A stretch of DNA of 58,632 nucleotides from Bryobacterales bacterium (lineage in GTDB: Bacteria > Acidobacteriota > Terriglobia > Bryobacterales > Bryobacteraceae), in contig JAFAQY010000076.1 of the NCBI GenBank assembly GCA_019261985.1, positions 1 to 58,632 of the forward strand, read 5' to 3'. Both the position numbers and the translations under genes were made by a program. A model generated the notes under the pieces. It had not been told where the DNA came from and ran no database searches. It was given only the letters and a program-made list of their open reading frames with translations. Position 1 is the stretch's first letter. Each line of letters starts with the position of its first letter. Positions 41,389 to 51,555 of this stretch are shown in pieces.

Positions 41389-41676
41389 AAGTACTACCGC
41401 TCTGCAATGCGAAAAGCCAGCACATTTACCGCCAATACCGCGTCCAATTGAAATCTGCGATTTCGAGGGCACGCCGTAGCGGGTGCCTCACCATTCGGCT
41501 AGGCCGCTAACCACGGAGCGACAAACGAGGCGCGTCCCTATCAGAGGAGTATTAAGCCAATCGCGTACCCGCCGGAATCGCGTTAGCCGGACGCATCTTT
41601 AAGCCGAGACGAAACCCGTGCGATCCGTACGGCCCGCTCTCTTGTGATATGCTGCATCGCTGGAGGAGTCCCTCAA

Positions 41677-42570
41677 ATGGAACGAAAGAAAGCATCCGAT
41701 TATCCGCAGGAGTTGCTCAACCTCTTCGACCTGTACGTTCATGGCGAGATCGATCGCCGTGCTTTTCTGGATGGCGCCCAAAAATTCGCAGTCGGCGGCG
41801 TGACCGCCACGATGATCTGGGAGAGCCTCCGCCCCAACTACGCTTGGGCGGATCAGGTTCCAAAAGACGACAAGCGCATCAAGGTCGAGACCGTGATGAT
41901 AGATTCGCCGCAAGGAAATGGGAAAGTCAACGGCTACCTTGTCCGGCCCGCGAACGCGACCGGTAAACTGCCCGGAGTTTTGGTCGTGCACGAAAATCGG
42001 GGCCGCAATCCGTACATCGAAGATGTGGCGCGGCGCTTGGCAACTGCGAACTTTATGGCGCTTGCGCCGGATGGGCTCACCAGCGTTGGAGGGTATCCCG
42101 GCGATGAAGAGAAAGCCGCGGCGGCCTTCCGTACAGTGAACGGCCAGAAAATGACCGAAGATTTTGTCGCGTCCGCGATGTATTTGAAGAATCGTTCCGA
42201 TTCCACCGGAAAAATCGGCGTCGTCGGGTTCTGTTATGGCGGGGGAATTGCGAACACGCTGGCCGTGCGGTTGGGATCGGATCTCTCGGCGGCGGTGCCT
42301 TTCTACGGCGCGCAGCCTCCGGCCGCCGACTGCGCCAAAATCAAGGCTCCTATTCTGGCTCATTATGGTTCCGAAGATGCCCGCATCACAGGTGGATGGC
42401 CGGCGTACGAACAGGCATTAAAAGCGAACAACGTCACCGTCGAAGGGTATGTCTACCAAGGCGCCCAGCACGGCTTCCACAACGACACGACCCCGCGCTA
42501 CGACAAAGCCGCCGCAGAGCTGGCATGGCAGCGCACGCTGGACTTCTTCAACAAATACCTCAGATCATAA
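41677..42570 (+). CDS. Dienelactone hydrolase family protein
   Basis: A 297-residue alpha/beta hydrolase with the DLH triad: nucleophile C186 in GVVGFCYGGG, D234 in YGSEDARITGG and H265 in GAQHGFHND. The N-terminus carries DRRAFLDGAQKFAVGGVTA, a twin-arginine-like export segment (about 26-45) preceded by a short helical region; members with this extension are usually predicted as Tat-exported. The start at 41677 has GGAGGA upstream; the frame is open 11 codons further but lacks a ribosome site. DLHs hydrolyse dienelactones in aromatic degradation, though many act on other esters. Confidence 0.88.
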   Translation: MERKKASDYPQELLNLFDLYVHGEIDRRAFLDGAQKFAVGGVTATMIWESLRPNYAWADQVPKDDKRIKVETVMIDSPQGNGKVNGYLVRPANATGKLPGVLVVHENRGRNPYIEDVARRLATANFMALAPDGLTSVGGYPGDEEKAAAAFRTVNGQKMTEDFVASAMYLKNRSDSTGKIGVVGFCYGGGIANTLAVRLGSDLSAAVPFYGAQPPAADCAKIKAPILAHYGSEDARITGGWPAYEQALKANNVTVEGYVYQGAQHGFHNDTTPRYDKAAAELAWQRTLDFFNKYLRS

Positions 42571-42582
42571 GTCCGCTGTGGG

Positions 42583-42618
42583 GCAGGATGCCATCCTGCG
42601 CGCGATTGCCAATCGCGC
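42583..42618. repeat. Paired palindromic element downstream of the hydrolase gene
   Basis: GCAGGAT-GCC-ATCCTGC (42583-42599) and GCGCGATT-GCC-AATCGCGC (42600-42618), the exact inverse of the pair at 14772-14807, 28 kb away. A decayed further copy may lie at 42650-42680. Confidence 0.9.
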
Positions 42619-42879
42619 TGGGCGCGAGTGGAAGAAGCGGCCAGGTGGGTGAGCAACCGGCGGCACGTTGACAACCCGGTTTTTAAGCCTAGTTATCGGC
42701 TTCGTGCGCTGGTCCTGCCAGCCTTCTTTACTGCCCGGCTCCCGTTCGCTGATCCGCGTGTCCGCGCGGCGAGCGCGCCTGCCATGACAACGCCGAGTCG
42801 ACTTCGCGTACCTGCCCGAGAATTCGTGTCTGCCACCCCCGTATAGAACAAGATTCGCGCCTGGATTTTCAATTTCCTC

Positions 42880-42906
42880 TTGACAGATCCGCTTTCTCCC
42901 TATAGT
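42880..42906 (+). promoter_or_regulatory. Promoter candidate of the TonB-receptor operon
   Basis: A perfect -35 TTGACA (42880-42885) and TATAGT at 42901-42906 (spacer 15); TAGTCT at 42903 gives the preferred 17-base spacer. The next bases (CTATCTATTAAGTAG) are a partial dyad that a repressor might use. The start site would lie near 42915, about 100 bases before the leader ORF. Confidence 0.5.
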
Positions 42907-42968
42907 CTATCTATTAAGTAGTATTTACGGCAGCACTTAAACAGCACCTTGAGGTTGCTCGCTGGCCA

Positions 42969-42987
42969 GGTCGCTATGACTGCGACC
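42969..42987 (+). promoter_or_regulatory. Hairpin in the 5' leader
   Basis: Arms GGTCGC/GCGACC around a 7-base loop TATGACT, located about 55 bases after the likely transcription start and 31 before the leader ORF. It could be part of an attenuator or an RNA-protein site; the two-hairpin, six-base-loop ANTAR target is not matched exactly. Confidence 0.35.
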
Positions 42988-43018
42988 GTTCCACTCAACT
43001 AACTAAGGAGCTATCTCT

Positions 43019-43096
43019 GTGATCGGCAAAACGATTAATCTCTCTCCCCAAGCCACGGCTCCCGCGATCGCGCCTTGTTGTTGTCGCCGCGGTTAG
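43019..43096 (+). CDS. Possible Cys-rich leader peptide upstream of the TonB receptor
   Basis: A 25-codon GTG-started frame with AAGGAG eight bases upstream. It encodes MIGKTINLSPQATAP then AIAPCCCRRG and a stop, i.e. three consecutive TGT cysteine codons right before the end. It stops 56 bases before the GTG of the TonB receptor. Runs of one amino-acid codon near the end of a short leader are the hallmark of ribosome-mediated attenuation, and polycysteine leaders controlling sulfur genes are known in mycobacteria. The downstream genes here include a rhodanese-like and a sulfite-oxidase-like protein, which fits cysteine-responsive control. Too short for certainty. Confidence 0.5.
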   Translation: MIGKTINLSPQATAPAIAPCCCRRG

Positions 43097-43152
43097 CTTC
43101 CACCGTCCGCTAAAAAGTCATTTAATTCAGATCCTCATTACTGGAGGGAGTA

Positions 43153-46100
43153 GTGTCTTTAAACCCAACTCGATATTTTTCTATCCGTCTGCCGATTTCC
43201 AAAACAGCCATACGCGGGCTATTACTGGCGGCGATTGTGCAGGGCGTTTTCGCTCAGCAGGTCGATAACGCCGTCGTCGTCGGAACCGTGTTGGATTCAT
43301 CCCACGCGGTTGTTTCCGGAGCCGCGGTCAGACTGACGAATCTGGCCACCAATGCCGCGACGGAAGTGCACACGGATCTGCGCGGTGAATTCCGCACGCC
43401 ATCGCTGAAAATTGGCGAGTATGCGATCGACGTCGAGGCTGAAGGGTTCAAGCAATCGGTTCAGCGGGTGGTGCTCGAAATCGGCGACGTTCGCAAGGTG
43501 GACGTTGTCCTGGAAGTCGGCCAAACCTCCGAGTCGGTGAACGTGACGTCCGACGCGCCGTTACTGCAGGTCTCCGATTCTACGGTCGGGGACGTTATCG
43601 GTAACAAGCAGATCGAGGATTTGCCGCTCAACGGGCGCGATTATTTGCAACTCGCCAATCTTTCATCCGGGACGAATCCCACGAGCCAAGGCGTGGGCAT
43701 CGGAGGACAGGCCGGCACTCAAGTCGCCTTCCTGCTGGATGGACAAGACAACAACAATCAACAAATTTCCACTGGCCATTCCGGCCAGAAGGAAGTCGTG
43801 AAGCCTTCGGTCGATGCCATTGAAGAGTTCAAGGTCGTCACGAACGGATACTCCGCCGAATATGGCCGTTCCTCATCCGGCGTCGTTAGCGTCGCCATCA
43901 AATCGGGGTCGAATCAGTTCCATGGCAGCGCGTTCGAATTCATTCGCAACGACGTAGTGGATGCCAAAAACCTGTTCGCGACCTATAAGCCTCCTTACAA
44001 GCGAAACCAGTTCGGCGCCAGCGCAGGCGGCCCGGCCATTCGCAATAGGACGTTCATCTTCGGCGATTTCGAGGCCGCTTATATACGCCAGTCCACGACA
44101 ACGCTCAGCACTGTTCCCACTGCTGCGCAACGCGCTGGATCTTTCTCCTCCACCATCATCGACCCCCTGACGGGCGCGGCGTTTCCAGGAAATCAAATTC
44201 CGCTCAATCGTCTCGATCCCATATCGCAGAAGGCTCTCTCTTTCGAGCCGTTGCCGCAAACCAGCGCCACCACCAGCAACTACAATTACCAAAGCCCCGC
44301 CAATCAAGATAACCATCGATGGGATCTGCGACTCGACCAAATCGTCAGCGACAAGCAGAATTTATTCTTCCGCTTTAGCGATCAAGTGGTGGACAACGGC
44401 GTCTCATCCCCGCTGCCGCCATCCAATGGCCAATACTATTCGGGCGAAGGGGCCACCGAAGCCGACAGCAAAAGCTTCGTGCTCGGCCACAACATGCTGT
44501 GGACGCCGTCGATTGTCAGTTCCATTCGCGCTGGATGGAACAATCTGGCCTGGATAAACTACCTGCCGAATCAAGCCTTGACGGGCTTAGGAATTCCGGG
44601 TGTCCTGGCGACGAATCCCGGATTTTCGCAGATGGTCATCACGGGCTATCCTTCGCTCGGCGTTAGCAATGTCCCGAATTCCGATGACTCGCAGGACCGG
44701 CAGCTCTCCGGCGATGTGACCTGGACCAAGGGTAGGCACACAATGAAGTTCGGCGTGCAGGCGTATTGGCTGCAAACCAACTTCCTCAGTTCTCAGCGCA
44801 GCAGCGGGATTTTCAACTTCAACGGCCAGTACACTAAAAACCCTCTCGCGGATTTTCTGCTGGGCACTCCTTACACGCAAAGCCTCTCCAACTATTCGTA
44901 CCTTTCGCTCCGCGCGCCTTGGACCGATTTCTTCGTCCAGGACGATTGGAAGGTCAATACCAGGCTCACTTTAAATATCGGCCTACGGTATGAATTCGAT
45001 CCTCCTCCGGTTCAAAAGAACAACACCATTTCCAATTTCGATATGGACACCAATCCCGCGCATCCGGTCCTTGTTCCGGCCGGATCTGAGGGGGATGGTA
45101 TTGCCGGGCGGGCGCTTCAGAATATCGACTACAGGCAGTTTGCGCCGCGGATCGGATTGGCGTATAGCCTCGATAGCAAGACCGTTATTCGCGCGGGCGC
45201 CGGCGTTTTCTATTCGAATTTGATCACCGAAGGGGGCATGCAATCTTTAGAGGTCAATCCGCCGAACAACGTTCGTGTTAGCTTCACAACCAACAAGGCC
45301 GCGGCTCCTACGCTCTTTTTAAGCCAGGGATTTGCCCCCAACGCTCTGAGTTTGGCGAACGCGTCGAACGTCGAATTGGTGTCATATGACCGCAAGGGTG
45401 TGACTCCCGCGGATTATCAATGGAATTTCAATATCCAGCGCGAATTACCGGGCGGAATTCTCCTGGAAGCCGGTTACTACGGCAACAAGCTGGACCATAT
45501 GTGGCGTCAGATCGATGGCAATCCCGCCCCGCCCATACCGGGCAACATCAACTCGAATCGCCGCTTTACGAGCACCGTTGTGCCGGGGACCGGATACGCG
45601 ATCACGCTCGCTGATGTCGTGCGACTTCAAAAGGACGGTTGGAGCGCCTACAACGCCCTGCAAGCCAAGCTCGTAAAGCGTTACCGCAACGGGCTCACGT
45701 TCATCGCATCGTACGCCTACTCGAAAGCCATCGCGCTGGGCGACACCTCCGGAGTGCAGAACCAGCTTGACTGGCGAGCGGACATAGCTGTCTCCAGCCT
45801 TGATATGAGGCAGCACTTCGCCGGTAGCGCCGTTTATCAGCTTCCCGTTGGAAGAGGGCGTCAATTCGGTTCCAACTGGAACCGGGTGACGGATGTCTTC
45901 CTGGGAGGATGGAGCTTCGCGCCCATTGTAACTGTCAGTTCCGGGATGCCTCTGAATGTCACAGTCAACGGCAGCCCTTCCAATACCGGAGCAACGACCA
46001 GCGTGGACAGGCCGAATGTCGTAGGCAACTGGCATCTGCCGAGTCCCAGCGTCACCGAGTGGTTCAATACAGCGGCGTTTCTTGCGAACGCCCCATACAC

Positions 46101-46353
46101 CTACGGCAACGCCGGCCGCAACATTATTGTCGGACCGGGTTTGGCGAATATTGATCTGGCGCTACACAAATCCTTCCAGATTACCGAGCGCGTGAGCGCG
46201 CAGATTCGCATCGAGTCCTTCAATGCAACGAATACGCCGGCACTGGGCGCTCCGAACACGGTGCTCGGAAATCCACTATTCGGGCAGCTCACATCCACGG
46301 CGCCTGGGACGCAGGCCAGAGACAACCAATTGGGACTGAAGTTTGTTTTTTAA
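43153..46353 (+). CDS. TonB-dependent receptor, Oar-like, with carboxypeptidase-regulatory domain
   Basis: A 1066-residue outer-membrane transporter. A signal peptide (to about VFAQ) is followed by a CarboxypepD_reg-like Ig domain (VVGTVLDSSHAVVSGAAVRLTNLAT ... GEFRTPSLKIGEYAIDVEAEGF). The plug comes next (VGDVIGNKQIEDLPLNGRDYLQLANL; AIEEFKVVTNGYSAEYGRSSSGVVS), then a long beta-barrel ending in LGLKFVF with terminal phenylalanine. This type is abundant in Acidobacteriota and imports or binds large substrates with TonB energy. The start is a GTG with GGAGGGAG upstream. It is the first large gene of a co-directional run to 51555, downstream of the Cys-rich leader, so an organosulfur or related compound is a possible substrate (inference). 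Confidence 0.93.
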   Translation: MSLNPTRYFSIRLPISKTAIRGLLLAAIVQGVFAQQVDNAVVVGTVLDSSHAVVSGAAVRLTNLATNAATEVHTDLRGEFRTPSLKIGEYAIDVEAEGFKQSVQRVVLEIGDVRKVDVVLEVGQTSESVNVTSDAPLLQVSDSTVGDVIGNKQIEDLPLNGRDYLQLANLSSGTNPTSQGVGIGGQAGTQVAFLLDGQDNNNQQISTGHSGQKEVVKPSVDAIEEFKVVTNGYSAEYGRSSSGVVSVAIKSGSNQFHGSAFEFIRNDVVDAKNLFATYKPPYKRNQFGASAGGPAIRNRTFIFGDFEAAYIRQSTTTLSTVPTAAQRAGSFSSTIIDPLTGAAFPGNQIPLNRLDPISQKALSFEPLPQTSATTSNYNYQSPANQDNHRWDLRLDQIVSDKQNLFFRFSDQVVDNGVSSPLPPSNGQYYSGEGATEADSKSFVLGHNMLWTPSIVSSIRAGWNNLAWINYLPNQALTGLGIPGVLATNPGFSQMVITGYPSLGVSNVPNSDDSQDRQLSGDVTWTKGRHTMKFGVQAYWLQTNFLSSQRSSGIFNFNGQYTKNPLADFLLGTPYTQSLSNYSYLSLRAPWTDFFVQDDWKVNTRLTLNIGLRYEFDPPPVQKNNTISNFDMDTNPAHPVLVPAGSEGDGIAGRALQNIDYRQFAPRIGLAYSLDSKTVIRAGAGVFYSNLITEGGMQSLEVNPPNNVRVSFTTNKAAAPTLFLSQGFAPNALSLANASNVELVSYDRKGVTPADYQWNFNIQRELPGGILLEAGYYGNKLDHMWRQIDGNPAPPIPGNINSNRRFTSTVVPGTGYAITLADVVRLQKDGWSAYNALQAKLVKRYRNGLTFIASYAYSKAIALGDTSGVQNQLDWRADIAVSSLDMRQHFAGSAVYQLPVGRGRQFGSNWNRVTDVFLGGWSFAPIVTVSSGMPLNVTVNGSPSNTGATTSVDRPNVVGNWHLPSPSVTEWFNTAAFLANAPYTYGNAGRNIIVGPGLANIDLALHKSFQITERVSAQIRIESFNATNTPALGAPNTVLGNPLFGQLTSTAPGTQARDNQLGLKFVF

Positions 46354-46392
46354 GCAAATAGATTTTTATTCCAAACCAAAGAGGAAAGCACA

Positions 46393-46833
46393 ATGAAAAC
46401 ACTGCTATTGATCATGCTGGCGGCGGCTGCGGTCGCATTCAGCCAGTCCGAAGCAAAACAAGTCAAGCAAAAACAGGCATCGCAGGCGAAGGTGCTCACA
46501 CGCGCCGAGATCGATGAACTCCTGAGCAAGCCGGACCAAGTCTTGATTTTGGACGTGAGACGGCCCGACGAGATCAAGGATATCGGCGGATTCCCGGTCT
46601 ACTTGAACATCCAGATGGATGATCTGGAAAAAAGCCTGGTGTGGATTCCAAAGGGCCGCACGATCATAGCGGTCTCGAACCATGCTGCTCGCGCCGGCCG
46701 CGCGGCCGATCTTCTCGCCAAGAACGGCTTTAAAGTAGCGGGGGCGGCCGGAGCGCAAAATTATGAGTCGGACGGCGGCAAGCTAACCAGGATCGCGCCT
46801 CCGCCGCCGAACGTTAACGCCAAAAAGCAGTAA
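46393..46833 (+). CDS. Exported rhodanese-like protein lacking the active-site cysteine
   Basis: A 146-residue protein with signal peptide (MKTLLLIMLAAAAVAFSQ) and one rhodanese domain: LILDVRRPDEIKDIGGFPVYLNI, then IIAVSNHAARAGRAADLLAKNGFKVAGAAG. In active sulfurtransferases the strand ends in Cys (CxxGxRS/A); here the position is S95 (AVSNHAAR). It is therefore probably unable to carry a persulfide and may bind sulfur compounds or protein partners instead. It lies 39 bases after the TonB receptor in the same run. The proline-rich tail PPPPNVNAKKQ is unusual. Confidence 0.85.
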   Translation: MKTLLLIMLAAAAVAFSQSEAKQVKQKQASQAKVLTRAEIDELLSKPDQVLILDVRRPDEIKDIGGFPVYLNIQMDDLEKSLVWIPKGRTIIAVSNHAARAGRAADLLAKNGFKVAGAAGAQNYESDGGKLTRIAPPPPNVNAKKQ

Positions 46834-46853
46834 TCCCACACGGAGGAACTCAA

Positions 46854-47261
46854 ATGAAATCGCAATCTTTTCGCGTACTGAGTGTCGCGTTCACTCTCGC
46901 GAGCTTGCCGCTGTCGGCCCATCACGCCTTCTCCGCCGAGTACGCCGCGGATAAGCCGATCACGCTCAAAGGGACGCTGACCAAGGTGGAGTGGGTGAAC
47001 CCGCACGGCTGGGTCTACCTGGATGTGAAGGAAAGCGACGGAAAAGTGGTCAACTGGGCTGTTGAATTCGGTTCCCCCAATGCCCTGTTACGGCGGGGAT
47101 TGAGGAAAAGTGATTTTCCTCCTGGACTCGAGGTCGTCGTGGACGGTTACCGAGCCAAGAATGGGTCGGCGACGATCAACGGGACTAGCGTTAGGCTCCC
47201 GGATGGGCGTGATCTATACACCGGTTCATCGAATCCGAATGCCCCAGGAGCCGAGAAGTGA
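46854..47261 (+). CDS. DUF6152 family exported protein
   Basis: A 135-residue secreted protein: signal peptide ending LPLSAHH, then FSAEYAADKPITLKGTLTKVEWVNPHGWVYLDVKE, the DUF6152 pattern, and a C-terminal OB-like part (PPGLEVVVDGYRAKNGSATING). It overlaps the next gene by four bases (GTGA). DUF6152 genes commonly sit beside 'DGKPDLSG' secreted proteins in Acidobacteriota and some Gammaproteobacteria, as here. The function is unknown. Confidence 0.85.
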   Translation: MKSQSFRVLSVAFTLASLPLSAHHAFSAEYAADKPITLKGTLTKVEWVNPHGWVYLDVKESDGKVVNWAVEFGSPNALLRRGLRKSDFPPGLEVVVDGYRAKNGSATINGTSVRLPDGRDLYTGSSNPNAPGAEK

Positions 47262-48046
47262 ACACTCGCGCTGCCGTCCCGCTTGCAATCCTCGCGCTTG
47301 CTTTATCGGCGCTGTGCGCCACGGCGCAAGCGCAACCGCGCACTCCGAGTGCGGCGATTCCGCGCGGCGTCGATGGAAAGCCGGACTTCTCCGGCGTTTG
47401 GCAATCGCTGAGCGCGGCCGACTACGGTCTAGAGCCGCATCTCGCCAGAACTAAAGAAGAGCCGCCGGGCATGGGCGTAGTGGAAGGTGACGTAATACCG
47501 TACACGCCGGCGGCGCTCGAGCAGCGCGCGAAGAACTTCGCCGCGCGCGCCACCGCCGATCCGCGCACGAACTGCTACACCCTGGGCACTCCGCGCGGCA
47601 TCTATGGCAATGAGCCGTTCCAGATTTTCCAACGGCCTCGCGATTTGACGCTGATGTTCGAGTTCGGCCATCCCGTTCGCACCATCCACACCAATAACAC
47701 CGAGCACCCGGACGGACACATCGACTTCTGGCTGGGCGACTCTCGTGGCCATTGGGACCGCGACACTCTTGTCGTGGACGTGACCGACTTTAATGGTGAA
47801 ACCTGGCTGGATCGCGCCGGCGACTTCAACAGCGACGAACTCCACCTAGTAGAACGCTGGAGCTTTGTCGACCGGAACACCGTCCGGTACCGCGCTACCT
47901 TTGAAGACCCCAAAGTGTACACACGGCCGTGGACGCTCGAAGTGCTGCTTTACCGGCGTCTCGAAAAGAACGTTCAGCTGATCGAAAACTACTGTTCGAC
48001 TCTGGACTACGGCGAATTCTATCCGCTCCCGCATTCGGGTAATTGA
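47258..48046 (+). CDS. Secreted 'VDGKPDFSGVW' family protein
   Basis: A 262-residue exported protein (signal MNTRAAVPLAILALALSALCATAQA). The motif PRGVDGKPDFSGVWQ is near the N-terminus, GTPRGIYGNEPFQIFQ follows, and the core shared with its neighbour is WLGDSRGHWDRDTLVVDVTDFNGETWLDRAG, HLVERWSF and YTRPWTLEV. It is a paralogue of the genes at 5077 and 48054. The start is a GTG overlapping the DUF6152 stop. No catalytic motif was recognised; the repeated SRGHW-D-TLVVD pattern suggests a beta-rich binding or enzyme domain. Confidence 0.8.
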   Translation: MNTRAAVPLAILALALSALCATAQAQPRTPSAAIPRGVDGKPDFSGVWQSLSAADYGLEPHLARTKEEPPGMGVVEGDVIPYTPAALEQRAKNFAARATADPRTNCYTLGTPRGIYGNEPFQIFQRPRDLTLMFEFGHPVRTIHTNNTEHPDGHIDFWLGDSRGHWDRDTLVVDVTDFNGETWLDRAGDFNSDELHLVERWSFVDRNTVRYRATFEDPKVYTRPWTLEVLLYRRLEKNVQLIENYCSTLDYGEFYPLPHSGN

Positions 48047-48053
48047 GGTGGCC

Positions 48054-49004
48054 ATGAGAAACTTTGCACTTCCCATTTTTTTCGGCGCTCTCGCCCTCGC
48101 TTCGAACGTCGCGTTCGGACAAGGCATGCGAGGGTGGCGCGAGACATCGTTCGTTCCTACGCCGAGAGGCGATTGGGCTGGCGAGCGTCTTCCCGATGGA
48201 CAGCCCGACGTCTCCGGGCACTGGTCGAATACGATCGGCAATCACAACAATCTCACCGACCCGCAAGGTCCGCTTGGCGTCGATGACGAAGCGCCGCGCC
48301 AGAATTCGCGGCAGAACACAAGAGAGCCGAAGCCGCGCAGCGAGCGCGCTCCCAGCCGCGTCAGCGATCCGCCTGACGGGGAGATCCCACTGAAGCCGTG
48401 GGCGCGCGCGAAGCAGCGGGAATTTCTGAAGTATCTCAACAATCCCATCAAGCCGGAATATGTTGAGCCATTCGCGCGCTGTGCTCCCGGCGGCCCCTCG
48501 AAGTCGTTTATGTGGCATGGCTACGAAATCCGCCAGTTTCCCGGATACGTGGTGTTCCTGTTCGACTCCGGAAACCGGGTGATTCACCTGGATGGCAAGC
48601 CTCACCTTCCCGCGAATTTGAAGCTGTGGAACGGCGATTCACGCGGCCACTGGGAGGGCAACACGCTCGTCGTCGATACAACCAACAACAATTCGAAGGC
48701 GCGGCTCGGCCGCACCGGCGAGTTTGTCAGCGAGAACGCGACGATTCAGGAGTTCTTCATCTTCGACCCGAACGGCAATAGGTTCACATATCAGGCCGCC
48801 TACACCGATCCGACGGTGCTCACCAGGCCGTTCACCATCACCATACCCAACCGCAGAATAACCGACAAGACCCCGGCCGATGACTGGAACAATCTGACAT
48901 TTCCCGCCAAGCACGCCGGGAATGAGCCGGTCATCGAAGCCTATGAACGCATCTGCGTTGAAGGCAACGGCAATCACGGGCAGCCCGCCGCTGCAACGCA
49001 TTAG
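48054..49004 (+). CDS. Secreted 'LPDGQPDVSGHW' family protein
   Basis: A 316-residue exported protein: MRNFALPIFFGALALASNVAFG signal, RLPDGQPDVSGHWSNTIG, FPGYVVFLFDSGNRVIHLDG, then NGDSRGHWEGNTLVVDTTNNN and TQEFFIFDP-like segments (TIQEFFIFDPNGNRF). It ends with LTRPFTITIPNRR and a short Cys-containing tail (YERICVEGNGNHG). The ATG at 48054 is chosen over the GTG at 48048. It is adjacent to its paralogue, which points to an old duplication. The function is unknown. Confidence 0.8.
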   Translation: MRNFALPIFFGALALASNVAFGQGMRGWRETSFVPTPRGDWAGERLPDGQPDVSGHWSNTIGNHNNLTDPQGPLGVDDEAPRQNSRQNTREPKPRSERAPSRVSDPPDGEIPLKPWARAKQREFLKYLNNPIKPEYVEPFARCAPGGPSKSFMWHGYEIRQFPGYVVFLFDSGNRVIHLDGKPHLPANLKLWNGDSRGHWEGNTLVVDTTNNNSKARLGRTGEFVSENATIQEFFIFDPNGNRFTYQAAYTDPTVLTRPFTITIPNRRITDKTPADDWNNLTFPAKHAGNEPVIEAYERICVEGNGNHGQPAAATH

Positions 49005-49092
49005 TAGAGCGACTAGGTTACGCATAAAAAACGCGACCAATAATGAAGATAGAGCAGGCGCCGCAGAATCGCTTGCCGTAGGAGACCCGAAA

Positions 49093-50463
49093 ATGAATAC
49101 TCGCCGCCAGTTCTTCGCGATCGCAGCCGGGGGCTTGGCCTGGGCGCAATCGCCGAATCCGGACCGCCCCAAGCAGGGCATGATCGTTCGATCGGTCAGG
49201 CCGGAAGACCTGGAAATGCCTCCTTCCGGCTTCGACGATTACATCACCCCGATCGAGCACTTTTACGTTCGCACGCACGTGCTGGTTCCTCAAGTAAACC
49301 TGCGCGATTGGCGGCTGAAAGTCGAAGGGCAAGTGCAAACGCCGCTGACCCTCACCATGGATGAAATCCGAAGAATGCCGGCCACCGAGTTGGTGAGCGT
49401 TCTTGAATGCGCGGGAAATGGAAGGTCGCTCTATAGCCCAACAGTTGCCGGCGTGCAGTGGGTCAACGGAGCTGTTGGAAATGGCCGCTGGCGCGGAGTC
49501 CGCCTGGCCGACATTCTTAAGCGCGCGGGCATTCAACAGAACGCCGTCGATATAGCGTTCGACGGCGCGGACACTCCAATCGGGAGCATGGAAGATTTCC
49601 AGCGTGCTCTGCCGCTCGCAAAGGCGATGGATCCGAATACGCTGCTGGCTTATGAGATGAACGGTGAAAGTCTGCCGGGCAAACATGGCTTTCCGCTTCG
49701 AGTCGTGGCGCCCGGATGGGCCGGCGATCACTGGATGAAATGGGTCACATCGGTGCGCGTGCTGGACAAAGAGTTCGACGGCTGGTGGGTCAAGAATGCC
49801 TACCGGCATCCGGGCAAGCCGGTTGTCCCTGGAACGGCGTTGGCTCAAGATGCTATGACTCCCCTGCGAAGCCTTCGAGTGAAAAGCGTGATCTCTTCGC
49901 CGGTGGACGGCGCCCAAATCTTGGTTGGGAAGGCGGTCACAATTCGCGGAGCGGCCTGGAGCGGAGACGGCGGACCTGTAACGGGAGTAGAGGTCAGTGT
50001 AGATAACGGCCGCTCTTGGAAACGGGCGGAGCTTGGCTCGGAACAGTCCAGATTTGGCTGGAGGTTGTGGCGAGTCACGTGGACCCCCGCAACCGAGCAG
50101 TTTTATACCGTGCTGGCCAGAGCGCGCGATACCAGCGGCGACTTGCAGCCATTGACACAGGAGTGGAATCCGTCGGGTTACCTGTGGAATGCCGCTGCTC
50201 GCGCAGGTGTCGAAGTAGGGCGGGAAGTCCGTGCGCCCGCTTCGCCGCCATCGGCTGCGAGCTCTAATCTTGAAGAGCCGCCCCGATTCCGCTCGGCCTG
50301 CCTCGCCTGTCATGAGGCGGATTTAATTCAACAGCAACGTCTGACACGCGCGCAGTGGGACAGGGAGATTAATAAGATGACGGGTTGGGGCGCCTCGGTG
50401 GCGCCGGAAGAGCGCGACAGCTTCCTAAATTTTCTGGCCGGCAAATTCGGTCCACGCCCTTGA
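49093..50463 (+). CDS. Molybdopterin sulfite-oxidase family enzyme fused to a cytochrome c tail
   Basis: A 456-residue Tat-type exported enzyme (MNTRRQFFAIAAGG). The Mo-binding domain has the ligand cysteine C106 (LVSVLECAGNGRS), FYVRTHVLVPQV, LRVVAPGWAGDHWMKWVTSV and a C-terminal dimerisation domain (VTGVEVSVDNGRSWKRAEL ... YTVLARARDTSG), all of the SoxC/SorA/sulfite-oxidase family. Residues from about 400 hold a heme site CLACHEADLI and a short helical tail like the SorB cytochrome. The catalytic and electron-accepting subunits thus appear joined in one chain. The likely reaction is sulfite to sulfate in the periplasm. The start at 49093 has GGAG upstream. Confidence 0.87.
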   Translation: MNTRRQFFAIAAGGLAWAQSPNPDRPKQGMIVRSVRPEDLEMPPSGFDDYITPIEHFYVRTHVLVPQVNLRDWRLKVEGQVQTPLTLTMDEIRRMPATELVSVLECAGNGRSLYSPTVAGVQWVNGAVGNGRWRGVRLADILKRAGIQQNAVDIAFDGADTPIGSMEDFQRALPLAKAMDPNTLLAYEMNGESLPGKHGFPLRVVAPGWAGDHWMKWVTSVRVLDKEFDGWWVKNAYRHPGKPVVPGTALAQDAMTPLRSLRVKSVISSPVDGAQILVGKAVTIRGAAWSGDGGPVTGVEVSVDNGRSWKRAELGSEQSRFGWRLWRVTWTPATEQFYTVLARARDTSGDLQPLTQEWNPSGYLWNAAARAGVEVGREVRAPASPPSAASSNLEEPPRFRSACLACHEADLIQQQRLTRAQWDREINKMTGWGASVAPEERDSFLNFLAGKFGPRP

Positions 50464-50466
50464 AGG

Positions 50467-50865
50467 ATGACAGCGATGAAGGAAAGATATCTTTTGGATG
50501 AAATCAGCCGGCGCGTGCGCGAGGCCGCCGGTTTTGCGGACGCGCTCGAATCAATTCGCCTTCTATTGGAAGAAGAAGCCGGCCGCGCGATTCTACTGGT
50601 TCGCTTCGCGAAGACCGCGGGATCGCATCTCCGCGAAAAGCCCATCGCGGATTTGCTCGAATCGCGAGAATTCCCCGTGCGTTCGGTGTACACCTCGAGG
50701 TTCGATGCGGGCGGAGACCGGAAGGCAGTCTTGATCGGGTGCTTCGGGTCGTGGGGCGCTTCAGGAGATATGTTGGAGCGCGCCACTGCTCACGCCGCCG
50801 CACAACTCGGCGCCTTTTTGGCGCGGACGAATCGCGAGGTATTTCTCGATAACGAGGCGGCCTGA
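50467..50865 (+). CDS. Small protein paired with the ANTAR regulator
   Basis: 132 residues, no signal peptide. A helix (YLLDEISRRVREAAGFADALESIRLLLEEEAG) is followed by alternating strands (AILLVRFAKT; FPVRSVYTSRF; KAVLIGCFGSW), an arrangement that looks GAF-like but is not a confident match. It starts three bases after the sulfite-oxidase stop and ends 21 bases before the ANTAR gene. By analogy with NasS/NasT and AmiC/AmiR it may be the sensor partner of the ANTAR protein. An alternative start is the ATG at 50476. Confidence 0.65.
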   Translation: MTAMKERYLLDEISRRVREAAGFADALESIRLLLEEEAGRAILLVRFAKTAGSHLREKPIADLLESREFPVRSVYTSRFDAGGDRKAVLIGCFGSWGASGDMLERATAHAAAQLGAFLARTNREVFLDNEAA

Positions 50866-50886
50866 AGCGATAGCCTTTGGATAAAA

Positions 50887-51555
50887 ATGCGGAACTGGGA
50901 AGCGCAGCCATTTCGAAATAGCCTTTCTGCTCTGGCTTCCATCGCAATGCGGGAGTCCGGTGCGGACGGGTACGCTTACTTCGGACCGCAGCGCCTGGAC
51001 GGGGGCGGAGTCGTGATCGAGGAGAATGCGATTGCGGGCCCGTCGACTGGCGTGCGTGTGTATCGCTTAGGTGAGGCGCTCCTTGCATTTTCATTCTTCA
51101 GTTCCGCGCGGCTTCAGGAATCGGCAGCGCGTTTGGACCGGATGGTCGATACGATACGAATGGTTTGGACGGCATCCGAGAGTGCTGAGCATTATTCCGA
51201 CTTGATTGGCCGCGTGAATGAGCTTGAAACTCGGCTTCTCGATTCCAAAATTGCCGACCGCGCGCGCGGCTTTCTATCGGCTGCGAGCCAGTCGGACCTG
51301 GCCGGCGCAATCTCGAAGCATGTAGGGACCATATTGCGTCCCACCGAGACCAGGCGCGTTCTCGAAAAGATTGTCCAAGACCTCGAAGAGGAAGTTGAAG
51401 AACGCCGGGTCGCGGCGCTCGCGAAGGGAATCCTGCAAGGAGCCGCGGGATTAACCGAGGAGCAAGCGCACGCGCATTTGCGAGCCCTCAGCCGCCGGTC
51501 GCGCAAGCCGCTTAAAGATGTGGCTCTGGATCTGATCCAGGGGCGCGCCCGCTGA
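50887..51555 (+). CDS. ANTAR-domain RNA-binding regulator with GAF-like N-terminus
   Basis: 222 residues. The C-terminus (about 168-220: EEVEERRVAALAKGILQ, GLTEEQAHAHLRALSRRSRKPLKDVALDLI) is a clear ANTAR domain. Such three-helix domains bind paired hairpins in nascent RNA and prevent termination. Residues 10-100 (SALASIAMRESGADGYAYFG ... GEALLAFSFFSS) resemble a small GAF-like sensor, with a coiled coil between. No receiver domain is present. The gene closes the co-directional run containing the TonB receptor and the sulfite-oxidase fusion, so this operon is a plausible target. Confidence 0.82.
   Translation: MRNWEAQPFRNSLSALASIAMRESGADGYAYFGPQRLDGGGVVIEENAIAGPSTGVRVYRLGEALLAFSFFSSARLQESAARLDRMVDTIRMVWTASESAEHYSDLIGRVNELETRLLDSKIADRARGFLSAASQSDLAGAISKHVGTILRPTETRRVLEKIVQDLEEEVEERRVAALAKGILQGAAGLTEEQAHAHLRALSRRSRKPLKDVALDLIQGRAR

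Follow-up and report, generated by a model that had tools for sequence, protein, structure and literature searches.

A conserved two-hairpin RNA element and a cysteine-codon leader frame ahead of a TonB-receptor operon with an ANTAR gene in Bryobacterales: a candidate dual-input leader

The window analysed here, a 58,632-nt stretch of contig JAFAQY010000076.1 from a Bryobacterales bacterium (assembly GCA_019261985.1; 6.49 Mb in 138 contigs), holds a row of eight plus-strand genes that begins with an Oar-like TonB-dependent receptor (TBDT) and ends with an ANTAR regulator. Two features lie in series ahead of it: a two-hairpin RNA element (42927-42988, plus strand), which is conserved and covarying among relatives, and a 25-codon open reading frame (ORF) with a GTG start, MIGKTINLSPQATAPAIAPCCCRRG (43019-43096, plus strand, TAG stop), which has AAGGAG upstream and three UGU cysteine codons near its stop. 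From the sequences we give roughly even chances to a dual-input leader, in which cysteine supply would act through the leader ORF, the hairpins would probably be bound by the ANTAR protein, and the receptor operon would be the output. A preceding sequence-only reading of this DNA had described a 25-codon frame ending CCCRRG between a promoter candidate and the receptor, which is indeed there; the RNA element, situated between the same promoter candidate and the leader ORF, was absent from it.

The element is built of a hairpin P1 with an internal loop and a GCACC loop, followed by a hairpin P2 with the stem GGUCGC/GCGACC. It is common to the leaders of the receptor and the ANTAR gene of genome G148, the ANTAR gene of G112 and the window receptor, and these four sites made up the first covariance model (R1); all models were built without the Cys leader. 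Run on 150 genomes, R1 gave three new sites, one of them in the window's own genome (G000:C82:212665-212731); of the 20 places listed, seven were kept, six of which score at least 52 bits and one 35.8, and 13 were dropped (at most 27.8 bits). R2, trained on seven sites (the four of R1 and three more), found 14 sites of at least 33 bits in eight of 237 family genomes, 7/14 of them new to R2 (19 places listed, five dropped at 32.2 bits or less). R3 on 40 chosen genomes listed 15 places: the same 14 sites, which were kept, and one coding-frame match, in G008 (29.5 bits), which was dropped. The window itself scores 54 bits with R3 in the whole-genome search, as a member of the model's training set, and a 15th site was added at locus L184 in G218 (R3, 30.6 bits, E 7e-4). 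Among 396 phylum genomes searched with R3 under strict filters, no site outside coding frames turned up besides the two in the window's own genome (seven places listed; five dropped, the best at 35.2 bits). Because the search filters were strict, the number of sites is a lower bound. The kept sites lie mostly in short frames, with L148 and one L165 site continuing into the receptor frame. The dropped places amount to 22 loci, each in a stop-free frame of 184-799 codons.

In the alignment of 14 sites 95.9% of the cells pair, and both-sided changes occur in nine of the 16 pairs, a level reached by none of 500 shuffles and a signal destroyed by sliding the partners, although these counts lean towards structure because the alignment was fitted to it. 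The exchange in the P2 stem can be read directly from the sequences: GGUC/GACC or near in genus g73 becomes GACC/GGUC-like in three g41 genomes and GGCC/GGCC in G218. The unpaired GCACC loop and an AG linker are conserved beside the conserved stems. None of the 4227 Rfam covariance models reached its gathering score in the window or E<=1 in 42870-43200, and the two sub-threshold Rfam matches in L062 and L083 lie away from the elements. Two further occurrences are worth recording for their surroundings. In the window's own genome, L150 (7666-14934, G000:C82) has a second element with leader MFVRHQDLINFHFSLCQARAFAARCCRRCR before genes for a receptor paralogue and for one PSCyt2/PSD1 and one DUF1501 protein. 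At L149 (8481-8883, G112:C69) an element with leader MIVRPFLICAARCCRPRNCN is followed by short ORFs only, and nothing in the 15-kb stretch matches a receptor.

The leader ORF recurs as a type at the same place in relatives, a conservation that the sequence-only reading had put forward as a check. An ORF of 15-50 codons with a Shine-Dalgarno (SD) sequence, starting 15-35 nt downstream of the element and bearing a Cys/Arg cluster, is found at nine of 15 sites, the window included; eight of the nine carry adjacent cysteines, the ninth has Cys-Arg, and the leader at L167 has a single Cys. By comparison, of 156,000 positions drawn at random from the fetched loci, 2.1% have any SD-led short ORF at this distance and 160 (0.10%) have one with Cys-Cys. 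The binomial probability of eight or more Cys-Cys leaders among 15 is 8e-21, or 2.7e-10 given a short ORF, both of which overstate independence because the sites are related. The leaders vary in sequence and length and precede different genes (P0007/ANTAR as well as receptors). Their cysteine codons are UGU in 27/34 cases (12 leaders) versus 167/570 in ORFs of at least 200 aa picked mechanically from the same loci (p 7e-9). UGU is read by its tRNA through wobble, and the bias fits either a codon read in this way or a constraint on the RNA. Three further ANTAR loci (L065, L181 and L183) have leaders with CCCC, CC and CCC respectively, whose frame overruns the start of the next gene; that of L181 shows no stop within the 45 codons printed. 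Searching simply for TGYTGYTGYYGYCG, a string of Cys codons, was abandoned as a way of finding leaders: the string occurs in 150/150 genomes at counts close to those of a reversed control among the rows shown. Thirteen TGT-rich loci were read, of which 12 resemble, by eye, unrelated coding or antisense sequence; the thirteenth, L117, is an ORF that contains CCCC and stands ahead of another gene.

Both features appear to be placed early in the transcript. The promoter candidate in the window (plus strand) consists of TTGACA at 42880 and TATAGT at 42901, ending at 42906, with a 15-nt spacer; a simple promoter scan of 42600-43300 listed none. A pattern of TTGAC-N17/18-TAnnnT, then GAT and AGTAG, stands ahead of the element at 12/15 sites, the exceptions being the window (same parts, 15-nt spacer), one L062 site and L170. 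Since this pattern precedes the element at most sites, the element and leader are probably at the 5' end of the transcript.

What ties the element to ANTAR regulation is first of all its distribution. The eight genomes in which the R2 search found it all fall within the 19 of 237 that have a relative of the window's ANTAR protein (P0008) at E<=1e-12 (Fisher 3e-10), G218 is also among these 19, and the element stands directly before ANTAR genes (L062, L063) or before their operon (L165, L166-L169). Among the other ten ANTAR genomes, the leader type is present in G124 and G160, where hairpins were discerned by eye only, contig ends truncate the loci of G164 and G156, and no element was found in G034, G226, G140, G039, G137 or G058. 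Canonical ANTAR targets, as given in the excerpts of PMC3369931 and PMC7496416, are two hairpins whose hexaloops have A at position 1 and G at position 4 and are closed by C:G. The P2 loop is closed by C:G at 14/14 sites and has G at position 3 or 4 at 14/14, with U or C first at 13/14. The ANTAR subfamily concerned has a basic SRRSRR-like stretch that might, as a guess, shift its RNA preference. We note separately that the ANTAR gene at L166 (4244-4911, G150:C242) appears to be disrupted as assembled, with two pieces and one unreadable residue, and that G150 has a second, uninterrupted ANTAR copy on contig C120.

The genes downstream are as the sequence-only reading had them: eight plus-strand ORFs with gaps of 39, 20, -4, 7, 88, 3 and 21 nt. 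The TBDT (43153-46353, 1066 aa; PF25183 beta-barrel 7.8e-237, PF13620 3.1e-16) has both the CarboxypepD_reg domain and the PF25183 barrel that mark an Oar-like receptor, together with a Plug domain at 23.5, slightly below its cut-off of 23.9; its orthologues in L062, L083, L148, L165 and L184 are 61-79% identical. Next come a secreted rhodanese-like protein in which Ser occupies the Cys/Sec position (P0002, 46393-46833; PF00581 23.1 bits, a marginal score against the cut-off of 22.2), a DUF6152 protein (46854-47261; PF19649 7e-30), and two proteins of the DGKPDxSG type without a match in Pfam or NCBIfam, the secreted DGK1 (47258-48046; orthologues 49-84%) and DGK2 (48048, or ATG 48054, to 49004; orthologues 40-82%), the gap between them being 7 nt if DGK2 starts at the ATG. 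Then follows a SorA-like sulfite dehydrogenase whose C-terminal part is a CxxCH cytochrome and whose N terminus is of the twin-Arg type (49093-50463, the mechanical ORF start, at 48922, being upstream of the chosen one; PF00174 and PF03404; PDB 2blf 1.4e-76). The last two genes encode P0007 (50467-50865), a small protein without a match in Pfam, NCBIfam or PDB, whose 32-38% identical homologues sit before ANTAR genes in g41 genomes, and the ANTAR regulator P0008 (50887-51555; PF03861 4.1e-15, 55.7 bits against a cut-off of 27.3), which in profile searches matches NasR (4akk), AmiR (1qo0) and Rv1626 (1s8n). All of these are on the plus strand. The upstream neighbour (41644-42570) is a YghX-like dienelactone hydrolase (NCBIfam 434.5, just below the cut-off of 460).

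The core TBDT-rhodanese-DUF6152-DGK1-DGK2 and its tie to an ANTAR gene recur in relatives. In G148 the order is ANTAR-TBDT(78%)-rhodanese-DUF6152-DGK1-DGK2, and in G218, which belongs to the window's genus, TBDT(67%)-rhodanese-DUF6152-DGK1(84%)-DGK2-ANTAR. In G112 the genes are spread over three contigs, the first with TBDT-rhodanese-DUF6152-DGK-DGK, the second with rhodanese-DUF6152-DGK1-DGK2 and the third with a 79% identical TBDT, while G207 combines TBDT-DUF6152-DGK1-DGK2 with a divergent rhodanese-ANTAR-SorA(43%) and then a CxxCH ORF on the same contig. P0002 orthologues of at least 60% identity are found in three of 150 family genomes and P0008 matches at E<=1e-16 in eight of 150, the own genome included in both counts; at E<=1e-3 P0008 matches appear in 123/150, mostly through the ANTAR domain alone. 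The sequence-only reading had named the lack of a conserved order or leader in relatives as what would refute it, and both the core order and the leader type recur.

A number of observations weigh against a dual-input leader. In the operon itself, the exact eight-gene order was found in no relative read and is unique to the window, and the SorA gene is sporadic: among the clusters read it adjoins only in the window and G207. The sulfite oxidase that had been proposed as an operon member thus stands outside the core. For the RNA element, the score gap is not clean, coding-frame matches reaching 32.2 bits within the family (R2) and 35.2 bits outside it (R3, G494), so that score alone cannot settle L184 (30.6 bits, R3) or L170 (33.6 bits, R2); these two were accepted also on their position before receptor genes and their Cys leader. 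Folded singly, the sequences do not stand out (z -0.33 for the whole leader and -1.27, -1.10, -0.68 and +0.95 for four elements), and the minimum free energy fold of L063 does not show the element. The Cys leader is missing at six of 15 sites, all in genus g73, where only one of seven sites has it. The folding energies and the scarcity of the leader in g73 would suit an ordinary receptor operon in which leader and hairpins are an inherited 5' untranslated region of little regulatory role, an explanation that we regard as very improbable in the face of the compensatory changes in the element and of Cys-Cys ORFs that repeat at a fixed place beside different genes.

Other points bear on the leader ORF. 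R3 reports no element at L065, L181 or L183 (best R1 score in L065, 9.2 bits), and the leaders also contain Arg runs, with Arg codons flanking the Cys codons in most of them. An arrest peptide or translational coupler, working through the Arg-rich end or the position of the short ORF instead of sensing cysteine, would account for these Arg codons, for the single Cys at L167 and for the overrunning frames at L065, L181 and L183. We regard it as unlikely in view of the adjacent cysteines in eight of the nine element-linked leaders, the UGU bias and the leaders of mycobacterial cys operons, which in the part of PMC1262725 available likewise carry runs of Cys codons.

Further objections concern the ANTAR protein. 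Canonical ANTAR hairpins were found in the element at 0/15 sites (in a scan for unbroken 3-pair stems and exact hexaloops), and the single canonical match lies within the L168 leader ORF. Moreover, the co-occurrence of element and ANTAR gene is inflated by relatedness and linkage, and the stretches read around the sites at G000:C82, G152:C603, and G112:C143 and C69 contain no ANTAR gene. The missing canonical loops, the receptor sites without an ANTAR gene (G000:C82, G152:C603, G112:C143) and the conserved unpaired loop and linker beside conserved stems are all features one might expect if P1-P2 were a small-molecule riboswitch (e.g. for a sulfur metabolite), with the ANTAR gene merely travelling along and the Cys leader independent. 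We hold this to be possible but rather doubtful, in that every element genome of the R2 search has an ANTAR relative, the element stands directly before ANTAR genes, and no Rfam family matches. A more specific form of the dual-input leader, to which we lend tentative credence somewhat short of even, is an undescribed two-input unit in which a new class of ANTAR target RNA acts in series with a cysteine-sensing leader, so that uptake would occur only with both the ANTAR signal and cysteine shortage; the new class would be marked by a P2 loop that is mostly U/C-first with G at 3 or 4, read by the SRRSRR-bearing ANTAR subfamily.

Finally, the window leader has no intrinsic terminator of the kind that follows the hairpins of a canonical ANTAR target, including in 43096-43153, where the sequence-only reading had proposed to look for a terminator hairpin. 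Terminator-like stems with T tails occur at two of 15 sites: at L148 (3458-3472, minus strand), after the element in a leader that precedes a receptor and lacks the Cys ORF, and at L168 (5872-5890, plus strand), where an ANTAR operon has the stem behind its Cys leader. Shuffled stretches give 0.5 (L148) and 0.3 (L168) such stems, so that each of the two is weak alone. Given the lack of an intrinsic terminator, a switch in the window would probably be Rho-dependent or act at translation start; Rho has been proposed for mycobacterial cys leaders (PMC1262725, in the portion available). Taken as a whole, the earlier interpretation is partly supported: it is borne out as to the conserved leader type and the conserved core with ANTAR, but not as to the sulfite dehydrogenase in that core or the exact eight-gene order.

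For sulfur chemistry there are only hints. The active-site segments VRTH, ECAGNGR and KNAYR of the SorA-like protein align with VRYH, QCSGNSR and KTAYR of 2blf, whose residues we take to be the Moco-ligand Cys and the Arg, His, Arg and Tyr of the substrate site; its NCBIfam scores are 328.8 bits for SorA (equivalog cut-off 600) and 27.6 bits for SorB, also below cut-off. SorA, rhodanese and ANTAR genes adjoin in G207, and a leader-bearing operon in G157 encodes a PIG-L deacetylase (best NCBIfam match BshB2, far below cut-off), a redoxin and a DsbD_N protein. The rhodanese-like protein had been called cysteine-less, and it does lack the active-site Cys; it can now be described more closely as a Ser-for-Sec paralogue of a selenoprotein family. 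All five aligned operon sequences, the window included, have SNHAAR, and four relatives (L186-L189) read T(A/L)UNRG(G/A)RA, where U is an in-frame TGA, against AVSNHAARA in the window; many rhodanese-like matches hold one in-frame TGA, its position having been checked in these four only. With Ser where these relatives have the in-frame TGA, a sulfurtransferase role is unlikely, and the protein may instead bind or scaffold. Similar-looking proteins (QGYIPF..NYRSxDLxDPV) lie after the receptor or ANTAR gene at L168 (11748-13127) and L065 (9578-10801), the former without a Pfam match and next to a redoxin-domain protein.

Put together, a dual-input leader would work as follows. A transcript started at the promoter would carry two stacked control elements ahead of the TonB-receptor operon. 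The P1-P2 RNA near its 5' end would be the binding site of the operon's own ANTAR protein, which would sense a signal through its N-terminal part, and scarcity of charged tRNA-Cys would slow the ribosome at the leader Cys codons and so raise expression of the receptor operon. The output would be the outer-membrane receptor and its secreted partners (the pseudo-rhodanese, DUF6152 and the two DGKPDxSG proteins), with the sulfite dehydrogenase added here, and most likely the operon would serve to take up a sulfur-containing compound and handle it in the periplasm at times of cysteine shortage. Soil Acidobacteriota have many TonB receptors, and few of these have a known substrate. If the proposal holds, a cysteine-linked leader would offer a handle for assigning some receptors to sulfur acquisition without cultivation, and the combination of an ANTAR target with a Cys leader would make a two-signal attenuator of an unusual kind. 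A covarying RNA without an Rfam match that is tied to an ANTAR subfamily would give a new candidate ANTAR target, outside nitrogen metabolism, that can be put to the test.

Among the papers listed and the passages covered in our literature search, which was limited to open-access papers, none describes this unit. Its components have recognizable counterparts, compared here on the basis of the excerpts of the papers cited. The SorA-like protein shares with the SorAB sulfite dehydrogenase (PDB 2blf) the Moco domain, the active-site letters and a cytochrome CxxCH part, but is a single fused chain that scores below the NCBIfam equivalog cut-offs. The rhodanese-like protein resembles a selenoprotein rhodanese-like family of the same bacterial family in its rhodanese-type domain and secreted-looking N terminus (NF041203, a weak match), and differs from it in having Ser for Sec and SNHAAR in place of UNRGGR or UNRGAR.

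Closest to the leader ORF are the polycysteine leader ORFs of mycobacteria and other Actinobacteria (PMC1262725; Canestrari 2020, as cited in PMC13236596 and PMC9094748), which are likewise short ORFs with a Cys run near the stop, placed upstream of an operon without a conserved terminator hairpin. The mycobacterial leaders have a leaderless start (according to a cited title) and serve cysteine biosynthesis, whereas the present ones are SD-led, follow a conserved two-hairpin RNA, and precede TonB-receptor and ANTAR operons in Bryobacterales-type Acidobacteriota. The uORFC-8-2 motif of cysS in Rhodobacterales (PMC8632094) also ties tandem Cys codons in an upstream ORF to RNA structure; in that motif, however, the codons are part of the structure, which ends in a U run, UGC is the prevailing codon, and the gene is cysS. 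For the hairpins, the closest relatives are the ANTAR systems NasR, EutV and AmiR (PMC3369931, PMC7496416), with which the window shares an ANTAR protein, two tandem hairpins in a 5' leader, and C:G closure and a G in the P2 loop. In contrast to their targets, the P2 loop here is U/C-first at 13 of 14 sites and P1 is long and interrupted with a larger loop, and the element precedes receptor operons instead of nitrogen genes, with terminator-like stems at two of 15 sites.

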